Both the position numbers and the translations under genes were made by a program. A stretch of 64,000 nt of DNA from Pelotomaculum schinkii (GTDB lineage Bacteria; Bacillota; Desulfotomaculia; Desulfotomaculales; Pelotomaculaceae). Shown here one piece after another: positions 8,913 through 20,523 of this stretch. The notes below the pieces were generated by a model. That model was not told the DNA's origin, did no database searches, and worked only from the letters and a program-made list of their open reading frames with translations. The stretch is from NCBI RefSeq assembly GCF_004369205.1, contig NZ_QFGA01000002.1:372001-436000 (forward strand), written 5' to 3'. Position 1 is the first letter of the stretch, and each line of letters begins with the position of its first letter.

Positions 8913-10325
8913 ATGGAAAACCGTAGCCTTATACAAATCAAAAATAATCAGATTAAAACGGAAAATATTGATTACCATCAACTAACATTATCTCTCTTAA
9001 ACGAAGGTTTGCGCACAAAAATGCTGACAGGGGCTCAAGTTGAACAAATACAGGCACAAATTATCGCCATGTTAGGTGAAGCCATTTCCCAATATACCAA
9101 ATACGAAAGTAGTTCTGTAAGAACTGAAACAGCCCAAGGTATTTTGCAATCCTTACTCTACAGTATTGATTATTATCTCATGAAGCTTTCATCCCTTGAA
9201 CAGTCTATTGAGGCTATACAACAAATAAATATAGTTGAGATATATAAACAGGGTTTAGAACTTGTGAAATGTGATTTAGAACTAGCACAGAATCTTTTGC
9301 AGGAAGTGCAAAATACAAGACTTCCAGTATCCATCATTGCTTATAATGATACCATCAATCAAGGCCTTGGGGAGTTTTTCCAGAGTTATGACGTTAAGTT
9401 TGATGCCCAGAATACGGCAGCTTCTATCGATTATCCTTTGCTGTTTGATGATTTTGGCTGGACAGGTATAAATTATATTAAACGGTATTTGGAGCATTTG
9501 AAACTTGAAAATGAACTGTGCAGCCATTTTAATCCGGAAGATATTAACTTGCTTTTAGAAGGCTATGGCCGGCAATACGGCTTGGATTGCACCCAGCCGC
9601 TTATCAATATTTCTGAGTTAATCTTGAAAAACGCGCTGTGTTTAGTTTTAAGCGGCAGGAGAGCAGATATTCTGACTATTAACCAAGATGACTGTGACTT
9701 ACTCGAAAGCCGCATGCAAATGTTAACTGAGGAACAATTTCCCGAAATGCTGCAGGGAGCTATGAATACAGTTTTTACCCAGCTTGATATTACAAATCCT
9801 GCTGTGCAGCAGTATTTTCAGCCATTTACCGATGTGTTCTGCCCGCAATTAATAAAGGCTGTTAAAGAAAACTCCCTTTCAGTTCTAATAGTACTTACAA
9901 TAGAAACCTTTACTTCCAGCACGCTATATTATGAACCAGGGGAAAAACTCAGTGACGAACAGCTCCGGGCAGTGATTGACAAACTGATGGAATGTCAAGA
10001 TGGTGAAGGCAAGGCTGATATAATTGAAAGGGAGATTCATAATATTGAAGATTTGACAGATGTATTCGGTGCTGATTGTATTTTTGGCCATGAATATACA
10101 GCCATCTTTAAACGGATGGGAGATTATGAGCTGGCAATTCTCTCGTCATTCCTATTAAATGATTCGCCTTTATCAAATGACAAAGTTTTATCTACTGATC
10201 ATCTACACCGCACAGAAAATGAACTCTACTGGCAAGAAAAACTTATACGCTATCTTGAAGCCGGCGATATTAACCGTTATAAAAACATTGTCCAACTGGC
10301 AGTAGAACTCCGGCAACAATATTAG
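8913..10325 (+). CDS. DUF6179-like protein, coupled to the DUF6323-like gene
   Basis: A 470-residue soluble, largely helical protein that I associate with DUF6179. It has no transmembrane segment, nucleotide-binding loop or nuclease motif. Recognisable stretches include LSLLNEGLRTKMLTGAQVEQ near the N-terminus, typical of this family, and an internal region rich in Leu/Ile helices. Its ribosome binding site (GAGGAGG) lies inside the last codons of the preceding gene. The two-gene arrangement recurs in Firmicutes as far as I recall; function is unknown. Confidence 0.55.
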   Translation: MENRSLIQIKNNQIKTENIDYHQLTLSLLNEGLRTKMLTGAQVEQIQAQIIAMLGEAISQYTKYESSSVRTETAQGILQSLLYSIDYYLMKLSSLEQSIEAIQQINIVEIYKQGLELVKCDLELAQNLLQEVQNTRLPVSIIAYNDTINQGLGEFFQSYDVKFDAQNTAASIDYPLLFDDFGWTGINYIKRYLEHLKLENELCSHFNPEDINLLLEGYGRQYGLDCTQPLINISELILKNALCLVLSGRRADILTINQDDCDLLESRMQMLTEEQFPEMLQGAMNTVFTQLDITNPAVQQYFQPFTDVFCPQLIKAVKENSLSVLIVLTIETFTSSTLYYEPGEKLSDEQLRAVIDKLMECQDGEGKADIIEREIHNIEDLTDVFGADCIFGHEYTAIFKRMGDYELAILSSFLLNDSPLSNDKVLSTDHLHRTENELYWQEKLIRYLEAGDINRYKNIVQLAVELRQQY

Positions 10326-10536: not shown

Positions 10537-10905
10537 AGAAGATCACCAATAAGTATTTCTTCCCAAATCAACTGCTAATTATTCAATGGTATTTCGGTGA
10601 TCTCTACCAGGTTATACTCATCAAGGTTTACAACAACACCGGTATCCTCTCCTAAACTTAGCTTCTCGTTCCTCTCTGAGTCCAAATATACTACATTTTT
10701 AAGGTATACTTCCCGGGGACTGGTACCCACTGAATCCATGTCGAGGTACCCTTCCAGGTAGGTGTTACTGTCGATCCGGATCGTAAGCCAGTAACCACTG
10801 TTGGCTATCTCCCCTGAAAACAACCGAAAGAAGATATTTGGCGGTTCAATATAATGCTCCCAAGAGGTGAGACACAGGATAATAAAAATAAGTTACAATG
10901 GGAGC

Positions 10906-11217
10906 ATGAAAAAGCGTAATCAGTATTCAGCCGAGTTTAAAGCCAAGGTAGTCCTGGAAGTTCTCCGGGAAGAAGCCACTGTCAATGAGATAGCGTCTAA
11001 ATATGGCATTCATCCTGTGATGGTCAATCGCTGGAAGCAGGAATTTGTAGACCGAGCTTCGGAGGTGTTCAAGAAAGGCCCCTCAGAAGCCGAAAAGGCT
11101 CTTGAAAAAGAGCAACAACATGTGGCAGAACTGGAGCGTAAAGTTGGTCAGTTAACATATGAAGTTGACTGGCTTAAAAAAAAATCTGACGAAATCCTCA
11201 ACCGTAAACGACCGTAA
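10906..11217 (+). CDS. IS3-family OrfA (HTH protein)
   Basis: A 103-residue OrfA: helix-turn-helix (KRNQYSAEFKAKVVLEVL, then EIASKYGIHPVMVNRWK) that recognises the IS ends, followed by a leucine-rich coiled coil (about 60-95) for dimerisation. ATG chosen at 10906 because upstream codons to 10867 have no ribosome site. It overlaps orfB around a run of nine A residues at about 11176-11184. Confidence 0.88.
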   Translation: MKKRNQYSAEFKAKVVLEVLREEATVNEIASKYGIHPVMVNRWKQEFVDRASEVFKKGPSEAEKALEKEQQHVAELERKVGQLTYEVDWLKKKSDEILNRKRP

Positions 11218-12055
11218 GGCCTTTGTTGAGCTTAGCCATAAAAATATCACGGTAAAGCGTCAGGCTGAGTTGCTGGGGCTCAATCGGAGTAGCGCATATA
11301 GGAAACCTCCCGTCAGGACAATTAGTGATGAGGAGTTATTAATCATGCGGTTGATTGATAAAATTCATACAGATGAACCGACCTGGGGCTACCGTACCAT
11401 CACGGCCATTCTCAGAAGAGAACATAAACTTGTGATTAACAAAAAACGAGTTCGCCGAATTATGCGTGATATGGGTATTTATACGTTGTATCCCAAGCCC
11501 AATCTGAGCAAACGCTACCATGCTCAATATATCCGCCCCTATCTGCTGCGCAACCTTAAAATCATCAGGCCAAACCAGGTCTGGGGTGTGGATATAACGT
11601 ATTTGCGCATGAAGAAAGGGTTCATGTATCTGTTTGTCATCATCGACTGGTATAGCCGCTATATTGTAGATTACGAGCTGTCAAGTACATTGGATAAATC
11701 CTTTGTCCTGAGATGTCTAAAGCGTGCTCTAAGTTGCCAGAAGCCAGAAATTATCAATTCTGACCAGGGCAGCCATTTTACTAATCCAGACTACATCAAG
11801 TTGTTGGAAGATAATGGAGTAAAGATCTCTATGGATGGCAAGGGCCAATGTCTGGATAATGCCAGAACGGAACGATTCTTCCGCACCTTGAAATATGAAC
11901 GAATCTACATAAGTGAGTACGAAACACCTCGAGAGTTGAGAATTATGCTGAATGACTACATGAAGACTTACAACACCCGCCGGCCTCATTCTTCGCTGGG
12001 TGGCGCCAGCCCAGTATCCTATTACCTCAAAAGCAAGCTCAATGAAGCTGCTTGA
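11159..12055 (+). CDS. IS3-family OrfB (DDE transposase)
   Basis: A 298-residue catalytic subunit with HTH_21 (about 50-110: DEPTWGYRTITAILRRE) and rve integrase core: first Asp in VWGVDITYLRM, second in INSDQGSHFT, and the Glu in ARTERFFRTLKYE, ending with RRPHSSLGGASP. Normally it is made as an OrfAB fusion by frameshifting on the A run. Here orfB sits in the +1 frame relative to orfA instead of the usual -1, so either the slippery run has changed length or orfB is started on its own. Confidence 0.9.
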   Translation: MKLTGLKKNLTKSSTVNDRKAFVELSHKNITVKRQAELLGLNRSSAYRKPPVRTISDEELLIMRLIDKIHTDEPTWGYRTITAILRREHKLVINKKRVRRIMRDMGIYTLYPKPNLSKRYHAQYIRPYLLRNLKIIRPNQVWGVDITYLRMKKGFMYLFVIIDWYSRYIVDYELSSTLDKSFVLRCLKRALSCQKPEIINSDQGSHFTNPDYIKLLEDNGVKISMDGKGQCLDNARTERFFRTLKYERIYISEYETPRELRIMLNDYMKTYNTRRPHSSLGGASPVSYYLKSKLNEAA

Positions 12056-12501
12056 TACATATCAACATGGGAAGGAGAAAACTTAATTTTTTATATCTGT
12101 GTTCTTGACACGGGGGGCATTATACAACAGCTTTTCCGAAGCGTCGTAAAAACTTGTCAAGCATGTTGCTGCGGTAAAACTTGGAATAAGCCAACCCCCA
12201 GGAAATACTAACAGCAGCAACCGCTAATACGGATAATAACGGAGTCCAGTTATTTTTCAACGCCAATCTTTTTAACGCCTGGATATTAACTGCATCAGCC
12301 CCTAAAAACAAAACAATCAAGGGGTAGATTATCACGTAAATAGCCATCGAATGGAGCAAGCTTTGGTACAACTCCAACTGACGGCTATCCGGCTTTTTCC
12401 CTCTTGACACCATTGAGTTAAATACTAATTGTGACAGCAAACCAGGTATTACCAGCAACAGGCTAAAAAATAAAGAATCCAGCTTAATCTCTGACATGTT
12501 T

Positions 12502-12663
12502 TTATCCGGCTGCTTTAGCAGTCTTTTTGGGGTCAGAAACTATCCCTTCAGGCGATTTTTTTAAACTTGGACGGGACGCCTCTACCGTCTGCTTGCTCTT
12601 AGCAGGATGTTTTTTGACATAGGTCTCAATAATTCTGATAGAATTTCTTTCAACCTGATCCAT
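12502..12663 (-). CDS. Small 53-aa basic protein upstream of the split membrane gene
   Basis: ATG at 12663 with an excellent AAAGGAGG site (8 nt). The 53-residue product starts MDQVERNSIRIIETYVKKHP and continues with a Lys/Ser/Pro-rich tail. It shares I(R/K)II(E/D)TYVKKH with the 40-residue protein at 10414-10536. Its stop is 4 bases from the start of the membrane-protein gene, so they form an operon. No known family. Confidence 0.6.
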   Translation of the reverse strand: MDQVERNSIRIIETYVKKHPAKSKQTVEASRPSLKKSPEGIVSDPKKTAKAAG

Positions 12664-13187
12664 AAAAACACCTCCTTTAGTTAATATTACCTTTAAAGAA
12701 GGCTAAAATCAACCATTATTGTAGGGTAGAAGTCTTCTTCAAACCGTCCTTTTCCAAGAAATATGAATAACCAGTTACCAGGACTAAAGCGTCATCACCG
12801 GCATGTCCAACAAAGATGTTCACCAGTTCCATAAAGGCCTTATTCATTAGCTCCCCAAGTATTCTCTTGCACTTTCAGTTACGGCCTGAATTAAACAAAG
12901 GCAAACCTGCGCCATACGCAACATAACAATGGCTATCTTCGGTCAGCGTTGTTCATGGTATCCAATATGTCAAGATTTTCGGGCAGACGCAGTTCGACGG
13001 TGAATTATTACAGTGGCTGGCCGCCGAAACTATATTACACTGGCTGCGACTACTGCCATGCTCAGTCTAATTAAGTAGAGTCCCGGTTTATTTGCGTATA
13101 CTCATACTAGAAAGTCCTGATTTCATAACCATCTTCCGGCCGCTATTGAAGCGGCATGGCTTGAAGATAAAAGAAAAGTGTAAGTTA
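12664..13187. other. Intergenic region with gene relics
   Basis: No confident gene. A 43-codon minus-strand ORF (12847 to 12716, starting MNKAFMELVNIF) has no ribosome site and no known match. A pair of short direct repeats (TATTACAGTGGCTG and TATTACACTGGCTG, about 13005-13053) looks like a decayed IS terminus but is too short to assign. Confidence 0.3.
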
Positions 13188-13566
13188 TTAGACATATTTG
13201 ATCAATGCCAGCGCTTCGCGGGCGATTTTCCTGGAGCGGGCCGCCACCAGCGCCACTGCATCGGGTTTCTTCGCCGGCGGCCACCAAGACCGGCCAGTCC
13301 TTAAAAATACCCCCCCCGTAGCGCTCACCCGGCACATCTGCCGCCGTCAGCACTGCTTCCACTCCCGGATAGGCACGGGCCGCCGACACATCAATGCTCT
13401 TTACCAAAGCCCGGGGATATTTCGTCCGCAGCATGGCGCCGTACAGCATATCTTTAAAATGCATATCATCAACATACTGGCCTGTTCCCAGTACTTTTTC
13501 CCGCGCGTCAATTCGTGGCAAGCTGGTTCCTATCCCCGCATGCGCTGTTGATATACTCTTAGCCAA
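13188..13566 (-). pseudogene. Remnant of xanthine dehydrogenase molybdenum subunit
   Basis: The N-terminus of an aldehyde/xanthine oxidoreductase large subunit: GTSLPRIDAREKVLGTGQYV, then DMLYGAMLRTKYPRALV and GVEAVLTAADVPG, all characteristic of the a/b hammerhead domain. After GEET the frame breaks; a second frame continues PDAVALVAARSRKIAREAL and stops at 13190. Only about 125 of some 760 residues remain. No other xdh or molybdenum-cofactor gene is nearby. Confidence 0.85.
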
Positions 13567-14376
13567 TTCTTTTCCGTTACTACATCTGCTCCAAAGCAGA
13601 TTTGATCCCTGTTAACAAAACGCTTAAAGGCATCAATACTGGTCATCCAATCCATTTAGCCCGAGAAAGTAGGGAATCATGGGCAGCTTATAAGCTGTAG
13701 TATAATTTTTATTACAGAATAGTGCATATCCCAGTTTAAAATGGAGACAATTTTACTGATGAACTATTGAGCCTGCTCTAACCCTATTAAGGCTATACCG
13801 AGTCATAGAGGGCGAGCCAATTCTCACTTTGGGCAGTTTCAGCGCTTCCGGTCATTTGATGCGGGCCGCGCGCGATACCGTTTCTGCAACTAGTTCAAAC
13901 GGTTGCCACCAGTCTGTAGTGCGCCACCCGTGGCTCTAGTCGCGTCGTGGAGAGAGGCAGGCCGTTGCGGACATCGGCGCTCAACTCGACGACTCGGCGA
14001 GGAAGCGGTCTCCGAGGCGATCCGCTGGGTAACATCGGACAATGATGCGGCCGCTCCCGGAGGTTAGTCCGGCCTACGCGGGCCACCGCGAGCGCTTGGC
14101 CAGGGGGTCGCACCGAGTCGGACGAGCCGAACAGCTTGGCCCTCCCCACTTACGCCGCCCCTGCATCAATCATCGAGGCTGGCTGCGCACAAAAACTGTC
14201 CGGCTATTCCAAGACGCAGGACCATTCTCCAAAATCGCAATTGACGTAACACGGACTGTCGTGTCATCCTCTCGGAACTCTATACAGCATTGCTCAGAAT
14301 AGTTAAGACCCGTAGGTCACAGCTTGGCAGACCAAAGACTGTCTGCCACAGGACGTTACTAATAAGGAGGATTACG
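13567..14376. other. Gene-free stretch at the left border of the GC-rich cluster
   Basis: From about 13850 the base composition rises sharply and codon-like structure disappears; overlapping ORFs here have no ribosome sites and no recognisable products. A short inverted repeat ACACG-6-CGTGT near 14250 overlaps a TTGACG hexamer about 140 bases before the precursor gene and could be a control element. Nothing else seen. Confidence 0.4.
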
Positions 14377-14742
14377 ATGCGTTTCATGTTTAAAGACCTT
14401 ATGATCACTGTTCTCCGCGACGATGTTATGGCCGGACCTCACTGTGGCTCTTGTTCTATTATCTCCTGTCCTCTACCCACAGTCAATTGTGGTCCTCTCA
14501 CGTGTCCTCTAACATCCGTAATGCAGCTTGCTGCTAGCGCGGAAAGTTTAGCCTCGTTGAAGCGCGAGCTTCAGATTGCTTTGGCCCAGGTTGAGGCGGT
14601 GGAGGCCGCGACGCGAGAACAGAACCAACCGAAGAGCTTTGAAGAGGCAGAGTTCGTCGAGCGGAGACTGGCTGAAGCACTCGAGACTGTGCGGCAACAG
14701 AAGAGCACGCTCCTGCGTTCGGGGACTTCAGAGGAGGGGTAA
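14377..14742 (+). CDS. Candidate lanthipeptide precursor, Cys-rich with C-terminal helical tail
   Basis: ATG at 14377 has a near-perfect ribosome site (TAAGGAGG, 6 nt). The 121-residue product has three parts: a leader-like start (MRFMFKDLMITVL, 1-13), a Cys/Ser/Thr/Pro-rich segment (about 23-46, with five Cys: HCGSCSIISC, then NCGPLTCPLTS), and a long charged helix (about 50-121, heptad-like LKRELQIALAQVEAVEAAT and ERRLAEALETVRQQK). The KDLM.TVL start followed by Cys-rich core resembles RiPP precursors found beside lanthipeptide synthetases. The location directly upstream of HopA1-like and kinase-cyclase genes supports this. The helical tail after the core is unusual; it may be a follower or a docking domain. 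Not certain that the core is modified. Confidence 0.6.
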   Translation: MRFMFKDLMITVLRDDVMAGPHCGSCSIISCPLPTVNCGPLTCPLTSVMQLAASAESLASLKRELQIALAQVEAVEAATREQNQPKSFEEAEFVERRLAEALETVRQQKSTLLRSGTSEEG

Positions 14743-14781
14743 CGAGCGACTCCAATTGGGCAGGTCTGGAACAGCGGAGAT

Positions 14782-15918
14782 ATGATCTATAGGTCGAACC
14801 CGCGTTACGCCCTGTTTAGTTTTGACGAACTAAATCAGGATGAGCGTGCAAAGCTCGGTTCAGTCGTGGCCGACCCTTCTTTTTATGGCGTCCTTGTCCC
14901 GAAAGCGCCAGGCACTTTAACGATCAAGCTAGTAGGCCACGAAACGGCCGAGCTCTTCCGAGATCTTGCGATAGGGCGCCCCCTACCGAGTGAATGCAAT
15001 TCGGGAGCTGCCGAGCTTCAGCTCTGGGATCTAGTCGCCGCAGAGATACTGGAGGTCAAGGCGAACGGGACCTTTAGAACTGGCTTGGCAGCAATGCCTA
15101 TGCGTAAGCGTTCGAAGCCATCCCTACCGCAAGGTAATTTGATGCGTATGTCTCTCGACGCGATCGCGTATGCCGAAGCCCTACAGCTTTCGAGCCCGGT
15201 AATGATATCTAATCGGCTATACGCCTACAACCGAATCCCGGTCGGGCCAAGATGGCGTCGACGCTGGACTAGGCAGGACATTAAGGCACGCATTGAATCT
15301 ATCATCCAATCTGCTCTCGTTCCCCCTCATACGTGGAACGCTTCGATTTTAGGGCCAACGTGGTCGACCTATACTCGATCTACTCTCACGTCAAAGAGCG
15401 CGGATGATTTCGGAGTATATAAGCTGTACATTAGCCCAAAGCCAGAATATTTTGTGGACTGTCTGGAGAGCGGACTCAATGACATTTTAAATCTCGAAGA
15501 CGCTTTAGGCTGGAAAGTTTGCAATGACCTCTCCGGTCTTCTCCGCCCTGACAAGTTCATTGTGTACTTTGAGTCCACGGCTCCCCTGTTCTCACTTGGC
15601 GACCGGCTTCAAGAGAGGTTGGACGGAGTCCCAAGTCACGGAGTCCCGTTCACAGCCGAGCTTGGCGGCAATGGGCTCCTGTCTTGGGGGCTGGATCCCC
15701 CAAGACTCTCAGGTGGTCCGGGGGCATCCTTATCGGAAAGTTGGCGTACGTGGCTCGCAGACAGGATTGCTGGAGCACTTTGGCAGTCGCGGCAACAAGG
15801 ACTGCGTGGCGAACGCGCATGTGAAGCGGCTCTTCTTCGCCTCCAGACTACCGGCGTGGATATTGACCGCTGGATGCCGACTGAACCCCTATTCGGGAAA
15901 ACAGGACCAGGTGATTGA
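14782..15918 (+). CDS. HopA1-like protein, putative phospho-Ser/Thr lyase
   Basis: A 378-residue protein whose C-terminal half matches the HopA1 (T3SS effector-like) pattern: YKLYISPKPEYFVDCLE, then WKVCNDLSGLLRPDKFIVYF, then GVPSHGVPFTAEL and GLLSWGLDPPR. In class V lanthipeptide and thioamitide clusters such proteins work with a kinase to dehydrate Ser/Thr. The N-terminal half (1-180) is poorly conserved, with a YNRIPVGPRWRRR segment before the core. Start ATG follows GCGGAGAT, 39 bases after the precursor stop. It overlaps the next gene at TGATG. High GC and frequent CGG/CGC codons distinguish it from the host genes. Confidence 0.6.
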   Translation: MIYRSNPRYALFSFDELNQDERAKLGSVVADPSFYGVLVPKAPGTLTIKLVGHETAELFRDLAIGRPLPSECNSGAAELQLWDLVAAEILEVKANGTFRTGLAAMPMRKRSKPSLPQGNLMRMSLDAIAYAEALQLSSPVMISNRLYAYNRIPVGPRWRRRWTRQDIKARIESIIQSALVPPHTWNASILGPTWSTYTRSTLTSKSADDFGVYKLYISPKPEYFVDCLESGLNDILNLEDALGWKVCNDLSGLLRPDKFIVYFESTAPLFSLGDRLQERLDGVPSHGVPFTAELGGNGLLSWGLDPPRLSGGPGASLSESWRTWLADRIAGALWQSRQQGLRGERACEAALLRLQTTGVDIDRWMPTEPLFGKTGPGD

Positions 15919-15919
15919 T

Positions 15920-18319
15920 GTGGACATAACGGAAAAGCTGATACTTCCGTCTGACGTCGAGTTGACGCGAGTTACAGATATCAACCAGGAACGCCTTACT
16001 GGCATCGCGTTTGACAAAGACGACTGGATCTTGACCCGTCCAGGCTCGAGGAGCCCCTCATCGGTCGTCAGCGACGCCCTAGCCCAACTACTCGATCAAT
16101 TCCGTGGCGGAACACGCATCGTGGATGCAGTGATAGCTTACGGAAAGCGCGCGGAAAAGGACTCGCAAGAGCTGCTCGACGAAGTCTGGCCTCCGCTCAA
16201 CCGCTTCATTCAGGCAAAATGGTTAGTTCCCGAAGGGTCGCTATTGGCAACGCCGCTGAATCCCTGGTATTCGAACGGCGCAAACTTGGCTGGATTGACG
16301 CTGCTGCGTTGCCTGCGCGTCCGCGAGGACTCTCAAGTCTATCAAGCTCGCTCAAGCGCTGGCGAATACCTCGCGGTGAAAATACTTGATGAACGTTCTA
16401 CTCCGAACGCTGGCGCCCTCCTAAGCGCTGAGGCTTGCATCCTGCAGCACCTCGGCGGCTCACCTAGTCCAGCCTTCATCGATTTAACGGCGCAAGGTAG
16501 CCGACACGTATTGATGATGGAGTGGTGCATCGGCGTGCCCATTACGGCGGCGGCCCGACCACACTATGAGGGGCCGGCCAAGGTCGCACGATGTCAGATT
16601 CACCAGCTGCTGGTCAGCCTGCTGGAATCCTATACATCGATCCACAGCAGTGGGGTACTACACGGTGACGTACATCCTGAGAATGCTATTGTCGACAGCG
16701 ATGGGCGTACTCGCCTAATCGATTTTGGCCTTGCGCAATTTATTGGCAAACCAAGGGAGAAGCTACTTCGCGGTGGTGTGCCCGAGTACATGGACCCGGA
16801 ACTTGCACAGGCGCTCCTCGACGATGGGCCTCGTCCAGAGACAACAATACAGTCCGAGCAATATTCTTTGGCGGCACTATGTTATAAGTTAGCAACAGGT
16901 TGCGCTTACCTGAATTTTCCAAAGGAGCGAGGCGAATTCCTGAAAGCTGTAGTCGAGCTAACTCCACTTCCATTTACAGCGCACGGCACTCCAGCTTGGC
17001 CTGAACTCGAAGAGATTCTCGTCAAGGCGCTGTCGAAAGACCCAGCCTTGAGATTCACCTCTACCTCCGATATGGCCACGCGCATCGCTCAACTCAATAT
17101 TCTCCCAAAACTACCAGTTCCGGAAATGTCCCGGAGTTCGGCCTGCGCGTCTGCACCATTTGTGGCGCAGGTCGAACGAAGACTGCATGTCGGTCAACGA
17201 ATTTACTCACAGGGCGTCGCAGCAGGACCACGCGCGACAATAATGACCGGAGCGGCGGGAATTGCGTATTATTTACTCCGCATAGCGATATTGTCCGCCA
17301 GCCCTGACCTGTTGGCTGCTGCCGATCAGTGGACGGAACGAGCTGGCCAGTTGGCGGCACACCAACGCGGAATCTACGACCCTTCTTCCGGAGCAACAGA
17401 AGGCGTGATTGGCAAAATATCACCATTCCATACGGACGCCGGTATCGCACTGATGCGCGGCTTGGTCGCGGAAGCGCGGAACGATTTAAGCGGACTCGTA
17501 ATGGCCGTTCGTGCCTTTATCCAGCTCACAGGCCGACCATGCGCGGCTATTGACCCGACGCTGGGGTGTGCAAGTGTATTGATTGGATCGGCGCTTCTAG
17601 CCCGCGCGCTCCAAAACACCGAGGGCAAATCCGATATTACCTCTAAAGCATCGAGCGATTTAGATACTCATGCGGACAAAATTCTGCGCTACGTATGGGA
17701 GAAGCTAGATCGCTGTGGTCCAGTCGGACATGAGTCAAGTGTGAGATATACAGGAGTTGCTCACGGATGGGCCGGACTCCTGTATGCAACTCTGATGTGG
17801 TCAGAAGTGGCCGGAGCGCCTCTACCAGCAAGTGTTGAGCGGCGGCTCTTCGAACTTGCGTCGCTATGCCTCCCGGAAGGTCGGGGGTTAGTTTGGCCTA
17901 TAGAGGGAAGGTCCACATACCGGGAGGTTATGCGAGGCTGGTGCCATGGAGCCCCAGGTCATGTTCATTTGTGGAATGCCGCCCATCGGATCTTAGGTTC
18001 GCGAGAATACTATGACATGGCGATCAAGGCCGCCTGGAGCACCTTCGATTTCGCGGGCGGAGGCGCGAGTATCTGTTGTGGCGAGGCAGGTCGCGTTTTT
18101 GCCCTGCTTAGCATGTATCGTCATTCGGGAGACCCGGCATGGTTGTACCGCGCGAAGGAGCGCGCCATGCGCGCCGTCTCGCAAGTAAATTTGAACGGTG
18201 ATCGAGCTTTTGAGAACAGCCTATATAAGGGTGAGCTCGGCGTGGCTCTTGCAATTCGCGAACTTGAGTATCCAGAAGATGCACTGCACCCAGTATTTGA
18301 GGTGGCGCCAAGAATCTAG
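15920..18319 (+). CDS. Kinase-LanC cyclase fusion (LanL-like without lyase domain)
   Basis: A 799-residue enzyme, GTG start at 15920 after AGGTGA (an ORF reaching to 15524 is only overlap with the upstream gene). Domains: N-terminal 1-125 with the DWILTRPGSRSPSSVV segment; Ser/Thr kinase about 130-400 with VKIL Lys (K154), HGDVHPEN (248-255), DFGLA (268-272); LanC-like cyclase about 440-790 with GAAGIAYYLL, the zinc Cys of GWCHGAPG (C675) and SICCGEAGR (C719, C720). The second ligand motif is CCG, not the usual CHG, giving a three-Cys zinc site as in ProcM-type cyclases. There is no SpvC-type lyase domain at the N-terminus, so the separate HopA1-like protein may take that role. Cytoplasmic. 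Confidence 0.75.
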   Translation: MDITEKLILPSDVELTRVTDINQERLTGIAFDKDDWILTRPGSRSPSSVVSDALAQLLDQFRGGTRIVDAVIAYGKRAEKDSQELLDEVWPPLNRFIQAKWLVPEGSLLATPLNPWYSNGANLAGLTLLRCLRVREDSQVYQARSSAGEYLAVKILDERSTPNAGALLSAEACILQHLGGSPSPAFIDLTAQGSRHVLMMEWCIGVPITAAARPHYEGPAKVARCQIHQLLVSLLESYTSIHSSGVLHGDVHPENAIVDSDGRTRLIDFGLAQFIGKPREKLLRGGVPEYMDPELAQALLDDGPRPETTIQSEQYSLAALCYKLATGCAYLNFPKERGEFLKAVVELTPLPFTAHGTPAWPELEEILVKALSKDPALRFTSTSDMATRIAQLNILPKLPVPEMSRSSACASAPFVAQVERRLHVGQRIYSQGVAAGPRATIMTGAAGIAYYLLRIAILSASPDLLAAADQWTERAGQLAAHQRGIYDPSSGATEGVIGKISPFHTDAGIALMRGLVAEARNDLSGLVMAVRAFIQLTGRPCAAIDPTLGCASVLIGSALLARALQNTEGKSDITSKASSDLDTHADKILRYVWEKLDRCGPVGHESSVRYTGVAHGWAGLLYATLMWSEVAGAPLPASVERRLFELASLCLPEGRGLVWPIEGRSTYREVMRGWCHGAPGHVHLWNAAHRILGSREYYDMAIKAAWSTFDFAGGGASICCGEAGRVFALLSMYRHSGDPAWLYRAKERAMRAVSQVNLNGDRAFENSLYKGELGVALAIRELEYPEDALHPVFEVAPRI

Positions 18320-18394
18320 TGAGGCAAACCAAAGGCGAGGTATTCTTGTTGCTATCCAAAAGCATTCTTACAGCCTCGTCTATATATTGCACGC

Positions 18395-19591
18395 CTACCT
18401 TTTTTGCTCCAGCATCAAAATAACATCACGTATAAGGGTTGCCGTTTGTTCAATTTTTCGGTTGTCCAGGATATCCGGGGTGTCGTTTTCGGTGTGAGTA
18501 ATCTTACCTAAAAGCCCCATAACCTCATTACTTGTAAAAGCCAGGGTCGTAATTCCCAGCGGCCAGAAAAAGCCGTGGTCGCTTTCGTAAAACTGCCCGC
18601 TAACAAAGTCTCCATACCTTTTGGCTGTATTCATTATGTTATCCTGCAGTTTTTCGGGGCATCCGAAAAAGGTTATGGAGGTTTGTGTTTCTTTAAATCC
18701 TATGCCGTCAATGTTAATCGCCGCGGCAGTGTTTTGCGGGGGATATTCCTTGGTGTATAAAGCGTCTCCCGGAAACCAGCTGTCTTCGCCGCCGTAGGCC
18801 ACAAATTCTATATTGTGTTTGGTTTCCACCTGTTTTAGATACCGGCCGATTAACAGCAAGGCCGAAATACCGGCAGCGTTGTCCATAGCTCCCGGCGTGG
18901 CGGGATTTGTATCATAATGGGCGCAGATCACAATTTTTTTACCACTATTGCCGGGCCGCCGTCCAATCACGTTGGAACCGTAGCTTTCTCTTCTGGCGCT
19001 GACTATTTTGAGCCTGCCCTTGAGGCCGGCATTTTGTACCACGAACAGCCCGTCCTGCCTGGATACCGTAACGGACGGAATGGATAATTCACTGTCTTCA
19101 AGCAGTACCGGGCGGGGTCTGTCATAGTGGTTTACGGTAATAATCGCGCCGGGTTTCATATTTTCCAGGAGTTCCATAAAGCGGTCCTGGCTTTCAACCA
19201 CGTAATAACGGCGGTCAAAGTTCTTGGGCAAAAAACTGGAAGAAGCTATATCTCCATATACAACCGCACTATTATTTGTCACATCAAGACGGCTGAGATC
19301 TTCGATTGACGAAACCGGAACCAGTTTGGCTTCCACATCACATGAAGGCGAGAAAGTATTCACCGCCGCAGGTACCCTTTTTCCCCCCACTGTCAATTCG
19401 CTGTAAAAATCCCGCCAATCAGGACAAGGGTATTTCTGTAAAACCACATCAAACCCCGCCATTTTCATTTCCCCGGCAATGAAATCCGCTGCCGCCAGGT
19501 GCCCTAAAGAATCGGCGGGACGTGCCCCGATCTCAACAGACAGCCTGTTAATGCAATGTTCCACATACCCTTTCTGATTGAAATTGGCCAT
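18395..19591 (-). CDS. M28-family metallopeptidase (aminopeptidase-like)
   Basis: A 398-residue zinc peptidase. Family signatures: IVICAHYDTNPATPGAMDNA (metal ligands His and the bridging Asp), EFVAYGGEDSW (catalytic Glu region), AAINIDGIG (Asp) and the C-terminal YESDHGFFWPLGI (His). A PA-like insert precedes the catalytic domain (about 90-190). No signal peptide, so probably cytoplasmic. ATG follows AAGGAGGG. It lies 80 bases downstream of the tandem MerR gene on the same strand, and its ribosome site is complementary to the sequence just after the MerR stop. Confidence 0.85.
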   Translation of the reverse strand: MANFNQKGYVEHCINRLSVEIGARPADSLGHLAAADFIAGEMKMAGFDVVLQKYPCPDWRDFYSELTVGGKRVPAAVNTFSPSCDVEAKLVPVSSIEDLSRLDVTNNSAVVYGDIASSSFLPKNFDRRYYVVESQDRFMELLENMKPGAIITVNHYDRPRPVLLEDSELSIPSVTVSRQDGLFVVQNAGLKGRLKIVSARRESYGSNVIGRRPGNSGKKIVICAHYDTNPATPGAMDNAAGISALLLIGRYLKQVETKHNIEFVAYGGEDSWFPGDALYTKEYPPQNTAAAINIDGIGFKETQTSITFFGCPEKLQDNIMNTAKRYGDFVSGQFYESDHGFFWPLGITTLAFTSNEVMGLLGKITHTENDTPDILDNRKIEQTATLIRDVILMLEQKR

Positions 19592-19593
19592 AA

Positions 19594-19673
19594 AAAAACC
19601 CTCCTTGTACCTGACGTTTTCCAGTCCAATAATACATCAGACTTTAAACCCTGGTGCACTAATGGAGGGTTTT
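19594..19673 (-). promoter_or_regulatory. Inverted repeat covering the peptidase ribosome binding site
   Basis: Minus strand: AAAACCCTCC directly after the MerR stop and GGAGGGTTTT (including the peptidase Shine-Dalgarno) 57 nt later. The 10-bp pairing would hide the ribosome site. The second arm is followed by a U run, so it could instead act as a terminator. Evidence is only the complementarity. Confidence 0.4.
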
Positions 19674-20433
19674 ATAATGAACACAAATTTTTAATAACAG
19701 TCAACCGGCTGATTAGCTCATGTGCTGATTGCTCGATGCTTCTAATCTTGGTAAGCCACTCATTCGTGTTGTAAAAAATGTTTTCTTCATCCGGCGGCAG
19801 CTCATTTAGTATACCGGTCAGCCCTTCTCTTATACCCCTGTCGTAATGGCAAAACATACTGTAAATAGACATCAGACTGAACCTGGCCTTGCGTAAAGCC
19901 CGGATCACATATAGCCGCCGGATTTCATGCTCCCCGTAATAACGATACCCGTTGTCCTGGTTACGTGGAACGGAAATCAAACCGTTTCTCTCCCAGCTTC
20001 TGAGCATATCAAGGGTAATATCCAACCGATTGGCTATATCTTTTGTTTTCCAAGACCGCAAGTCTGAACCGGTCAGGTTATCGCTTACGGCCGCCCATTC
20101 CTCAAGGAACCAGGCCGCAATCTCGGCTTTCTCCCGTTCTGCACTTACCAATGCCAGGTGTTCTTGCGCCGCCCGCATCGCTTCTTTATAGCTGCCGGCA
20201 GCCGACAGACTGAGAACAGCCAGAGCTTTTTGGCGTATGACACCCCCGAGCCATGTGCTTCTGTAAGCCGTTTTTACCAGGAGCACATGTTCAAGATGCA
20301 GCTCGCCGTACTGTCTATAGCCGTTATCCGCTCTTGGCACCGGCGGCAGGAAGCCAAGTTCCTCGTACTGCCTGACCGTATTGGGATGAACTCTGCATTT
20401 TTCTGCGATTTGTGAAGTTTTATAAGTTTTCAT
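19672..20433 (-). CDS. MerR-type regulator with two HTH domains
   Basis: A 253-residue protein with two complete MerR-type winged HTH segments in tandem: about 3-70 (TSQIAEKCRVHPNTVRQYEE, then GYRQYGELHLEHV) and about 128-195 (TKDIANRLDITLDMLRSWER, then GYRYYGEHEIRRL). A helical linker (75-125) joins them and a C-terminal coil follows. Classical MerR proteins have one HTH and dimerise through the coil; a single chain with both could bind an operator as a pseudo-dimer. There is no Cys-rich or drug-binding effector domain. Likely regulates itself and the peptidase downstream. Confidence 0.8.
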   Translation of the reverse strand: MKTYKTSQIAEKCRVHPNTVRQYEELGFLPPVPRADNGYRQYGELHLEHVLLVKTAYRSTWLGGVIRQKALAVLSLSAAGSYKEAMRAAQEHLALVSAEREKAEIAAWFLEEWAAVSDNLTGSDLRSWKTKDIANRLDITLDMLRSWERNGLISVPRNQDNGYRYYGEHEIRRLYVIRALRKARFSLMSIYSMFCHYDRGIREGLTGILNELPPDEENIFYNTNEWLTKIRSIEQSAHELISRLTVIKNLCSL

Positions 20434-20523
20434 ATTAACATACCACAGGAATTACATGAGCTGTTATGATAGCTTGCATAGTTTTATTCTGTCAAATAAC
20501 TCACAGCCTGACTGCTGTACCAG

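Follow-up and report, generated by a model that had tools for sequence, protein, structure and literature searches.

How might a lanthipeptide be made at a locus where kinase and cyclase are joined in one chain and the only candidate for the lyase step is a separate protein? The question is posed by three collinear, intact open reading frames (ORFs) that lie within positions 14377-18319 of the forward strand of the window, by which we mean the whole stretch of 64,000 nucleotides that was analysed (Pelotomaculum schinkii, contig NZ_QFGA01000002.1, positions 372,001 to 436,000). The frames are called here A (precursor), Y (lyase candidate) and K (kinase-cyclase fusion). The analysis makes it quite probable that they constitute a minimal lanthipeptide pathway, namely a precursor and a two-enzyme synthetase guided by RREs (recognition elements of ribosomally synthesized and post-translationally modified peptides, RiPPs), in which K would phosphorylate, Y would eliminate and the LanC domain of K would cyclise. 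The features are given below, with the basis of each assignment in brackets.

14365..14370, + strand: strong ribosome-binding site AGGAGG, six bases 5' of the ATG of A (sequence).
14377..14742, + strand: precursor gene A, 121 residues with 5 Cys.
14383..14415, + strand: strand-like motif near the N-terminus of A (residues 3-13), on which RREs may dock (precursor alignment).
14416..14517, + strand: presumed core of A, residues 14-47, with all 5 Cys and Ser/Thr; limits approximate (sequence and precursor alignment).
14545..14721, + strand: C-terminal segment of A, residues 57-115, predicted to be helix-like from sequence (precursor alignment).
14782..15918, + strand: Y, 378 residues, candidate phospho-Ser/Thr lyase of the HopA1/LanY superfamily (hhalign, Foldseek).
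14782..15081, + strand: probable RRE-like N-terminal domain of Y, residues 1-100 (hhalign with the RRE of K; element order in the model).
15319..15891, + strand: putative lyase part of Y (roughly residues 180-370), which includes K214, K245, R255 and Y262 (VIA-align rows; invariant residues).
15920..18319, + strand: K, 799 residues, RRE-kinase-LanC fusion with a GTG start (Pfam, NCBIfam, motifs).
15920..16270, + strand: predicted N-terminal RRE domain of K, residues 1-117 (AlphaFold2 model, Foldseek, VIA-align).
16301..17104, + strand: Ser/Thr protein kinase domain of K, roughly residues 128-395 (PF00069; HGDVHPEN at 248, DFG at 268).
17234..18298, + strand: zinc-type LanC cyclase domain of K, residues 439-793 (PF05147; WCHG at 674, CCG at 719).

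A and Y are separated by 39 bases, and the GTG of K lies one base past the stop codon of Y.

A first-pass annotation had described the locus as a lanthipeptide-type cluster with a fused kinase and zinc-type LanC, and the domain content of K agrees with it. K matches Pkinase (PF00069) with an E-value of 1.3e-20 and 74.3 bits, and LANC_like with an E-value of 1.6e-24; its score with APH (PF01636) is 22.7 bits, just under the cut-off of 23.2. The motif HGD[VI]H..N is kept in 9 of the 9 K proteins available (the window and the eight loci described below), and DFG in all except that of locus L030, which has DFP. WC[HN]G and CCG, which we take to be the zinc site from the ligands of LanC enzymes, are present in the 8 full-length K proteins, as WCHG and CCG in the window. 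In the K of Micromonospora halophytica an in-frame TAG stands at the Trp of WCNG (L010:12113), reflecting an interrupted gene or a sequencing error, and alignment and tree include only the piece ahead of it. The annotation had also placed the lyase outside the 799-residue protein. An SpvC-type lyase was looked for within K and none was reported: the Pfam scan gave no lyase family at E ≤ 1, and the NCBIfam model of LanL (NF038150) aligns only from its position 231 of 851.

The N-terminal part of K is predicted to be an RRE, a fold defined as a βββ-ααα winged helix (PMC12710340). The AlphaFold2 model of the first 120 residues has a predicted local distance difference test score (pLDDT) of 80.5. 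Apart from an additional short helix behind strand one, it is made up of three strands and three helices, in agreement with the definition for this PqqD superfamily. In Foldseek, the N-terminus retrieves TigE, PqqD, ThcOx, MibB and TbiB1 with a probability of 1.00, and two Rickettsia methyltransferases with 0.99. In VIA-align, the highest Z scores belong to TbiB1 (10.5), PqqD (9.9), TigE (9.8), a lasso peptide B1 protein (6jx3, 9.6) and NisB (9.2), while chains unrelated to RiPPs reach at most 8.6. Pfam returned weak and mixed matches for this domain, namely DUF7782 (E 0.0045, two of six members) and ThcOx (0.014, one of six), the rest being apparently unrelated. Docking of K on the precursor would be expected from the fold.

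The N-terminus of Y probably is a domain related to the RRE of K. Between a nine-row profile of this part of Y and the 11-row RRE set, hhalign gives a probability of 60.3 and a score of 31.3, as compared to a maximum of 22.8 in 200 shuffles and 10.8 for the reversed profile, and the order of the elements in the model is, by eye, the same as in an RRE. The same type of domain is found a third time in the two Cupriavidus loci, fused to a 2-oxoglutarate (2OG)-Fe(II) oxygenase (PF13640, E 3e-12). The gene of this fusion (L008:10155-11063 and L012:10155-11063) is located between Y and K.

The HopA1 assignment of the remainder of Y is indirect, through relatives, profile-profile comparison and fold, because a direct family match is lacking. 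Among the relatives, the HopA1 model PF17914 matches the Micromonospora Y at 15.7 bits (E 0.04, model positions 22-165 of 170), the sole place reported in that genome, the scores of 13.7-15.7 bits being under the cut-off of 22.7. The Y of L029 matches RamC_N at E 0.0097, also under the curated cut-off; RamC belongs to class III and has its lyase at the N-terminus. Another PF17914 match, at L018 (E 0.59), does not fall in a Y and has no match to L009, the locus with the Y of that genome, and was discarded. When the profile of the nine Y proteins is aligned locally with that of five proteins passing the PF17914 cut-off, the hhalign probability is 84.5 and the score 49.3 over 156 columns. Trimming of the LanY set gives 72.3 and 44.4, as compared to 14.9 for the reversed profile and no more than 22.9 for any of 300 column shuffles. 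Foldseek, starting from a model of Y whose lyase part is of low confidence, places HopA1 (4rsx) at rank 1, with an E-value of 4.3e-3 and a probability of 1.00, and LxmY at rank 8 (0.98). The VIA-align matches, which span mainly residues 183-368, include the lyase domains of CuvL (Z of 8.5), ThurKC (8.2), HopA1 (7.8, 175 aligned), OspF (7.4) and LxmY (6.9, 177 aligned).

The residues expected at a lyase active site are also in place. In CaoY, R187, K219 and R229 matter, and Y236 is aligned with Y158 of SpvC (PMC9486802). Their equivalents in the window Y are K214, K245, R255 and Y262, and these positions are kept in 9 of 9 Y proteins. The spacing from the first of them is +31/+41/+48 in the window and +30 to +32, +40 to +42 and +47 to +49 among the nine, with +32/+42/+49 in CaoY; the last two steps, of 10 and 7 residues, are identical in CaoY and all nine. 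The LanY of L019 has exactly the 32/42/49 spacing, at R165, K197, R207 and Y214 as mapped from the alignment. The first position is Lys in Y, like K104 of SpvC (PMC9486802), and Arg187 in CaoY, while two residues further Y has Tyr and SpvC has His106. If the assignment holds, these two substitutions bear on the kinship among the lyase families. Taken together, the profile-profile comparison, the fold search and the residue spacing give indirect support to the membership of Y in the HopA1/LanY/SpvC phospho-lyase superfamily, which is wider than PF17914, and make Y a candidate for the lyase activity. The HopA1-like lyase of the first-pass annotation is thus retained at the level of the superfamily; the HopA1 match itself is absent from the Pfam scan of the 378-residue protein, which the more sensitive profile and fold comparisons outweigh.

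We have also considered that K alone both dehydrates and cyclises, the phosphate being eliminated in the kinase site in the manner of LanM, with Y as an accessory or carrier protein. K does carry both kinase and cyclase, and LanM is described as eliminating inside its kinase site (PMC9486802). However, the kinase of K is of the PF00069 type, whose known users, LanKC and LanL, have a dedicated lyase domain according to the literature, and Y adjoins A and retains the four lyase positions in every member. Furthermore, the K-RRE profile matches 3 of 296 actinomycete genomes, and these are the same three that the Y profile matches in a sample of 345. We consider this alternative quite improbable.

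The first-pass annotation had suggested looking for the same three-gene order elsewhere, and the order does recur. A, Y and K are grouped in the window and in eight other loci, from a Paenibacillus, two Cupriavidus, a planctomycete, a gammaproteobacterium and three actinobacteria. In all nine (the window, L007-L012, L029 and L030), A adjoins Y and is accompanied by a K of the RRE-kinase-LanC type; the two Cupriavidus, which are close relatives of each other, deviate in that K lies on the opposite strand and another gene intervenes. The aligned relatives are 29-36% identical to the window proteins, those of L029 33-35%, and those of L030 are more distant, with 26-27%. The genomes G946 and G908 are taken as actinobacterial, having been sampled from the same class as the Micromonospora genome.

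The set is rare in the collections covered. A scan of 84,980 species genomes with two short peptide patterns gave relatives of Y in four loci. Relatives of Y occur on 2 of 72,556 plasmid records, with relatives of K on the same two. The Y profile matched 1 of 348 genomes from the phylum of the window (its own), 1 of 343 planctomycetes (the one already known), 3 of 345 actinomycetes (two of them new) and 2 of 200 Burkholderiaceae. One of the last two is the known genome, while the other (G1256) is a weak match (E 7.6e-4, 54 columns, internal stop) and was discounted. These counts are minima, and absence from a sample is no proof, because scoring in each genome was confined to the few candidates that ranked best at first look, 5 or 9 in the searches for Y and 15 in that for the RRE. 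Among viral contigs there were 12 pattern matches with no relative among them, and phage records gave no megablast match to 13740-18340.

The neighbourhoods of the relatives were compared as ORF listings in which few ORFs were typed by family. In L008 (5253-8417) and L012 (4326-8419), a full-length LanB is found directly upstream of A-Y-K, so that two dehydration systems stand side by side. The LanB was typed in L008 only (Lant_dehydr_N and _C) and recognised by eye in L012, where a Cupin_8 gene precedes it.

The precursors are built in a common order, in which a short N-terminal strand-like motif is followed by a Cys-rich variable part and a helix-like end. In A, five Cys are interspersed with Ser/Thr. 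A was compared by BLASTP with 11 precursors or precursor units of the relatives, a small set searched with the low-complexity and composition filters off. Five match at E ≤ 1e-4: L009 (8e-14), L011 (7e-11), units 1 and 2 of L007 (1e-6 and 4e-6) and L030b (1e-5). Of the other six, two match weakly (0.10 and 0.93) and four give no match. The N-terminal motif is FKDLMITV-like or FRAKRLRV-like. RREs bind leaders as a strand (PMC10604976), a mode that the N-terminal motif of A likely fits. The helix-like part lies C-terminal to the core, except that Paenibacillus (L007), whose precursor consists of three units each starting with the motif, has an extra helix-like copy before the first core besides the one after each core.

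Among the relatives, the cores differ markedly. The precursor of L029 (9174-9836, minus strand) has a core with ten [CY]G[ND]AGAS repeats, and the local precursor in L008 and L012 is Pro-rich. L030, from the actinomycete sample, has two precursors (9015-9757, minus strand) beside its divergent Y-K pair, with CGCTCSCTCSCTC-type cores made of CT/CS runs.

This diversity is relevant to the possibility that the product is not a lanthipeptide, the peptide being only phosphorylated or dehydrated, or the LanC-like domain making another thioether or serving as a scaffold. Both the extreme run of Cys, Thr and Ser that forms the L030 core and the 2OG oxygenase encoded with the Cupriavidus set would suit such a product. 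Nevertheless, WC[HN]G and CCG are intact in every full-length K, and Cys occurs together with Ser/Thr in every listed precursor, so we regard this possibility as rather unlikely.

A number of results weigh against the two-enzyme lanthipeptide reading. The window Y has no Pfam or NCBIfam match at E ≤ 1, and the HopA1 and RamC_N matches of its relatives all fall short of the curated cut-offs. In global mode, the hhalign probability of Y with LanY drops to 48.0. The lyase part of the predicted structure of Y is of low confidence (block pLDDT of 37-78), Foldseek gives it no match at E ≤ 0.001 and places unrelated folds at ranks 2-7, and its best VIA-align Z of 8.5 is near the background, unrelated chains reaching 7.1 and 6.7. 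The K RRE likewise has no Foldseek match at E ≤ 0.001, and none of 6 members of the K N-terminal domain matches the PqqD family of Pfam at E ≤ 10. K scores 141.5 bits with the LanL model, for which the cut-off is 650, so that a search proposed in the first-pass annotation did not place K in that family. Finally, no transporter was recognised among the typed neighbours in the window, and the gene directly right of the cassette (18395-19591, minus strand) encodes an M28-family peptidase with a 62% homologue in G015, a relative.

The set can be compared with the known lanthipeptide classes. The class I LanB enzymes (NisB, MibB) and the PqqD-type RREs (TbiB1, PqqD) share with it the leader-recognition RRE fold, at VIA-align Z scores of 8.5-10.5. 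Dehydration in class I is tRNA-dependent, whereas here it would be carried out by kinase and lyase. Class III LanKC enzymes (RamC, ThurKC, PneKC) have a Pkinase-type kinase and a lyase fold to which that of Y is probably related, but in the window the candidate lyase is separate, LanC keeps the zinc-site motifs and an RRE is present. ThurKC binds its leader without an RRE (PMC10604976), and class III is described as lacking the LanC zinc site (PMC9486802). Class IV LanL shares with K the PF00069-type kinase and the zinc LanC in one chain, with the zinc-site motifs present; K differs in having no detected in-chain lyase, an RRE as its N-terminus and a score well under the LanL cut-off. With class V (CaoK/CaoY, LxmK/LxmY) and the LanC of class Vb, the common elements are a separate lyase candidate of the HopA1 superfamily adjoining the kinase and a catalytic spacing within two residues of that of CaoY. 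The differences are the fusion of a Pkinase-type kinase to LanC, the RRE and the Lys at the R187 position of CaoY. Class V is recognised by a standalone APH-type LanK (PF01636) and a standalone LanY passing PF17914, whereas K is a fusion under the APH cut-off and the window Y is without a PF17914 match. Class VI LanKCb of streptococci (He et al. 2023, as cited in PMC12328550) is, by name, a kinase-type lanthipeptide synthetase.

Alternatively, the locus could be described as class V, only divergent and with LanK and LanC fused by chance. To a large extent this is a question of filing, as the chemical steps could be identical. A HopA1/LanY-type lyase separate from the kinase is indeed what class V has, class Vb uses LanC (PMC12291118), and in L021 a PF17914 protein is flanked by ORFs that resemble, by eye, an APH-type kinase and LanC. 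On the other hand, K is Pkinase-like while remaining under the APH cut-off, it carries an RRE where class V enzymes have none according to PMC10604976, and the Lys of Y takes the place of Arg187 in the class V lyase CaoY. On balance, this description seems improbable.

We therefore rate the set as a new lanthipeptide synthetase variant that is neither class IV nor class V by the tests made, because K falls short of the LanL and class V profiles, class III is described as lacking the zinc site and classes II-V as lacking an identifiable RRE; the comparison sets it apart from classes I, III, IV and V only. The earlier view of combined class IV and class V parts is supported as to the fusion and the separate lyase candidate, but it misses the RRE of K, the probably related domain of Y and the Pkinase-type, rather than APH-type, kinase. 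According to PMC10604976 (2023), class II-V enzymes have no identifiable RRE. PMC12710340 (2025) reports new RRE fusions, including JmjC oxygenases, with no kinase, lyase or LanC among those named; the words 'kinase', 'lyase' and 'HopA1' are absent from its main text. In both the RRE-JmjC fusions and the Cupriavidus protein an RRE is joined to a 2OG-oxygenase-type domain; the JmjC domains described in PMC12710340 belong to PF08007, while the Cupriavidus domain belongs to PF13640 and stands beside a kinase/lyase lanthipeptide set. In the accessible portions of the literature searched, we found no report of an RRE-kinase-LanC fusion or of an RRE-lyase.

The pathway that we propose for the two-enzyme synthetase would start with the docking of K on the precursor through its N-terminal RRE, whose likely ligand is the strand-like motif at the start of the precursor. 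The kinase domain, judging from its conserved motifs, would then phosphorylate Ser/Thr of the core, and the phosphate would be eliminated by Y, acting as a separate HopA1/LanY-type lyase with a probably related docking domain at its own N-terminus. The zinc LanC of K would add Cys thiols to the dehydro-residues to form (methyl)lanthionine rings, while the helix-like C-terminal segment of the precursor may act as a second recognition or scaffold element. The domain assignments in this scheme are supported by the comparisons above, from which docking, all catalytic steps and the product are extrapolated.

We lean slightly toward a broader reading, in which the set represents a further lanthipeptide class composed of RRE-kinase-LanC and RRE-lyase. 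Each of the modifying enzymes, the optional 2OG oxygenase among them, would carry a member of a single RRE family and use it to dock on one shared strand at the N-terminus of the precursor. The core would lie between this strand and the C-terminal helix, repeatable as modules such as the three core units of Paenibacillus. If so, the set would show kinase, lyase and cyclase steps shared between proteins through a common docking domain, and would provide a small two-enzyme system to study the transfer of the phosphopeptide from kinase to lyase. It would also offer a plug-in domain for added modifications, as the Cupriavidus RRE-oxygenase fusion suggests.

As to the origin of the locus, the first-pass annotation had described it as GC-rich, unlike its surroundings, and possibly of actinobacterial source. 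The first statement holds, the GC content of 13750-18340 being 0.555 as compared to 0.44-0.45 for the flanks and to a mean of 0.478 and a maximum of 0.533 for 15 sampled 5-kb pieces of the genome. The data do not point to an actinobacterial donor, because the GC content at third codon positions of A, Y and K is only 0.54-0.56. Trees built from nine K and nine Y rows put the window on a long branch whose position is not well supported; measured along the branches, its closest row is a gammaproteobacterial metagenome-assembled genome, and the window does not group with the actinobacteria.

The same composition raises the possibility that the island, although a real cassette, belongs to another organism and was joined to the contig by misassembly or contamination. 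Its GC content is above all 15 genome samples, the DNA upstream of it has no match in 24 relatives, and the Y profile finds in the phylum sample only the genome itself. In addition, bases 1-127 of contig C6 (6,023 bases, same assembly; L002, L037) are 99.2% identical to window positions 16652-16778, within the kinase gene, and are then joined to other DNA, so that an anomalous join involving this locus may have arisen during assembly. Yet the island lies inside a 1.11-Mb contig, and such cassettes are patchy in the other samples as well, which makes a foreign origin of this kind unlikely.

The DNA of C6 after the 127 bases resembles, by eye, a spore-germination gene, and the contig end is probably chimeric. 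Upstream of A, the segment 13840-14376 is GC-rich to about 14200 and contains no recognisable gene, with no Pfam match in three ORFs and no copy in the 24 relatives; plasmid records gave no DNA match to 13650-14380, and Rfam nothing at gathering score in 12500-20500. The left flank (12050-13800) has short matches only, in 5 of 40 relatives, whereas the nucleotide similarity of G015 to the window starts at 18463, just right of the island, with none left of it. To the left of the island are a xanthine dehydrogenase-like gene fragment (13123-13566) and a transposase pair (10867-12055, HTH_Tnp_1 and rve, IS3-like).

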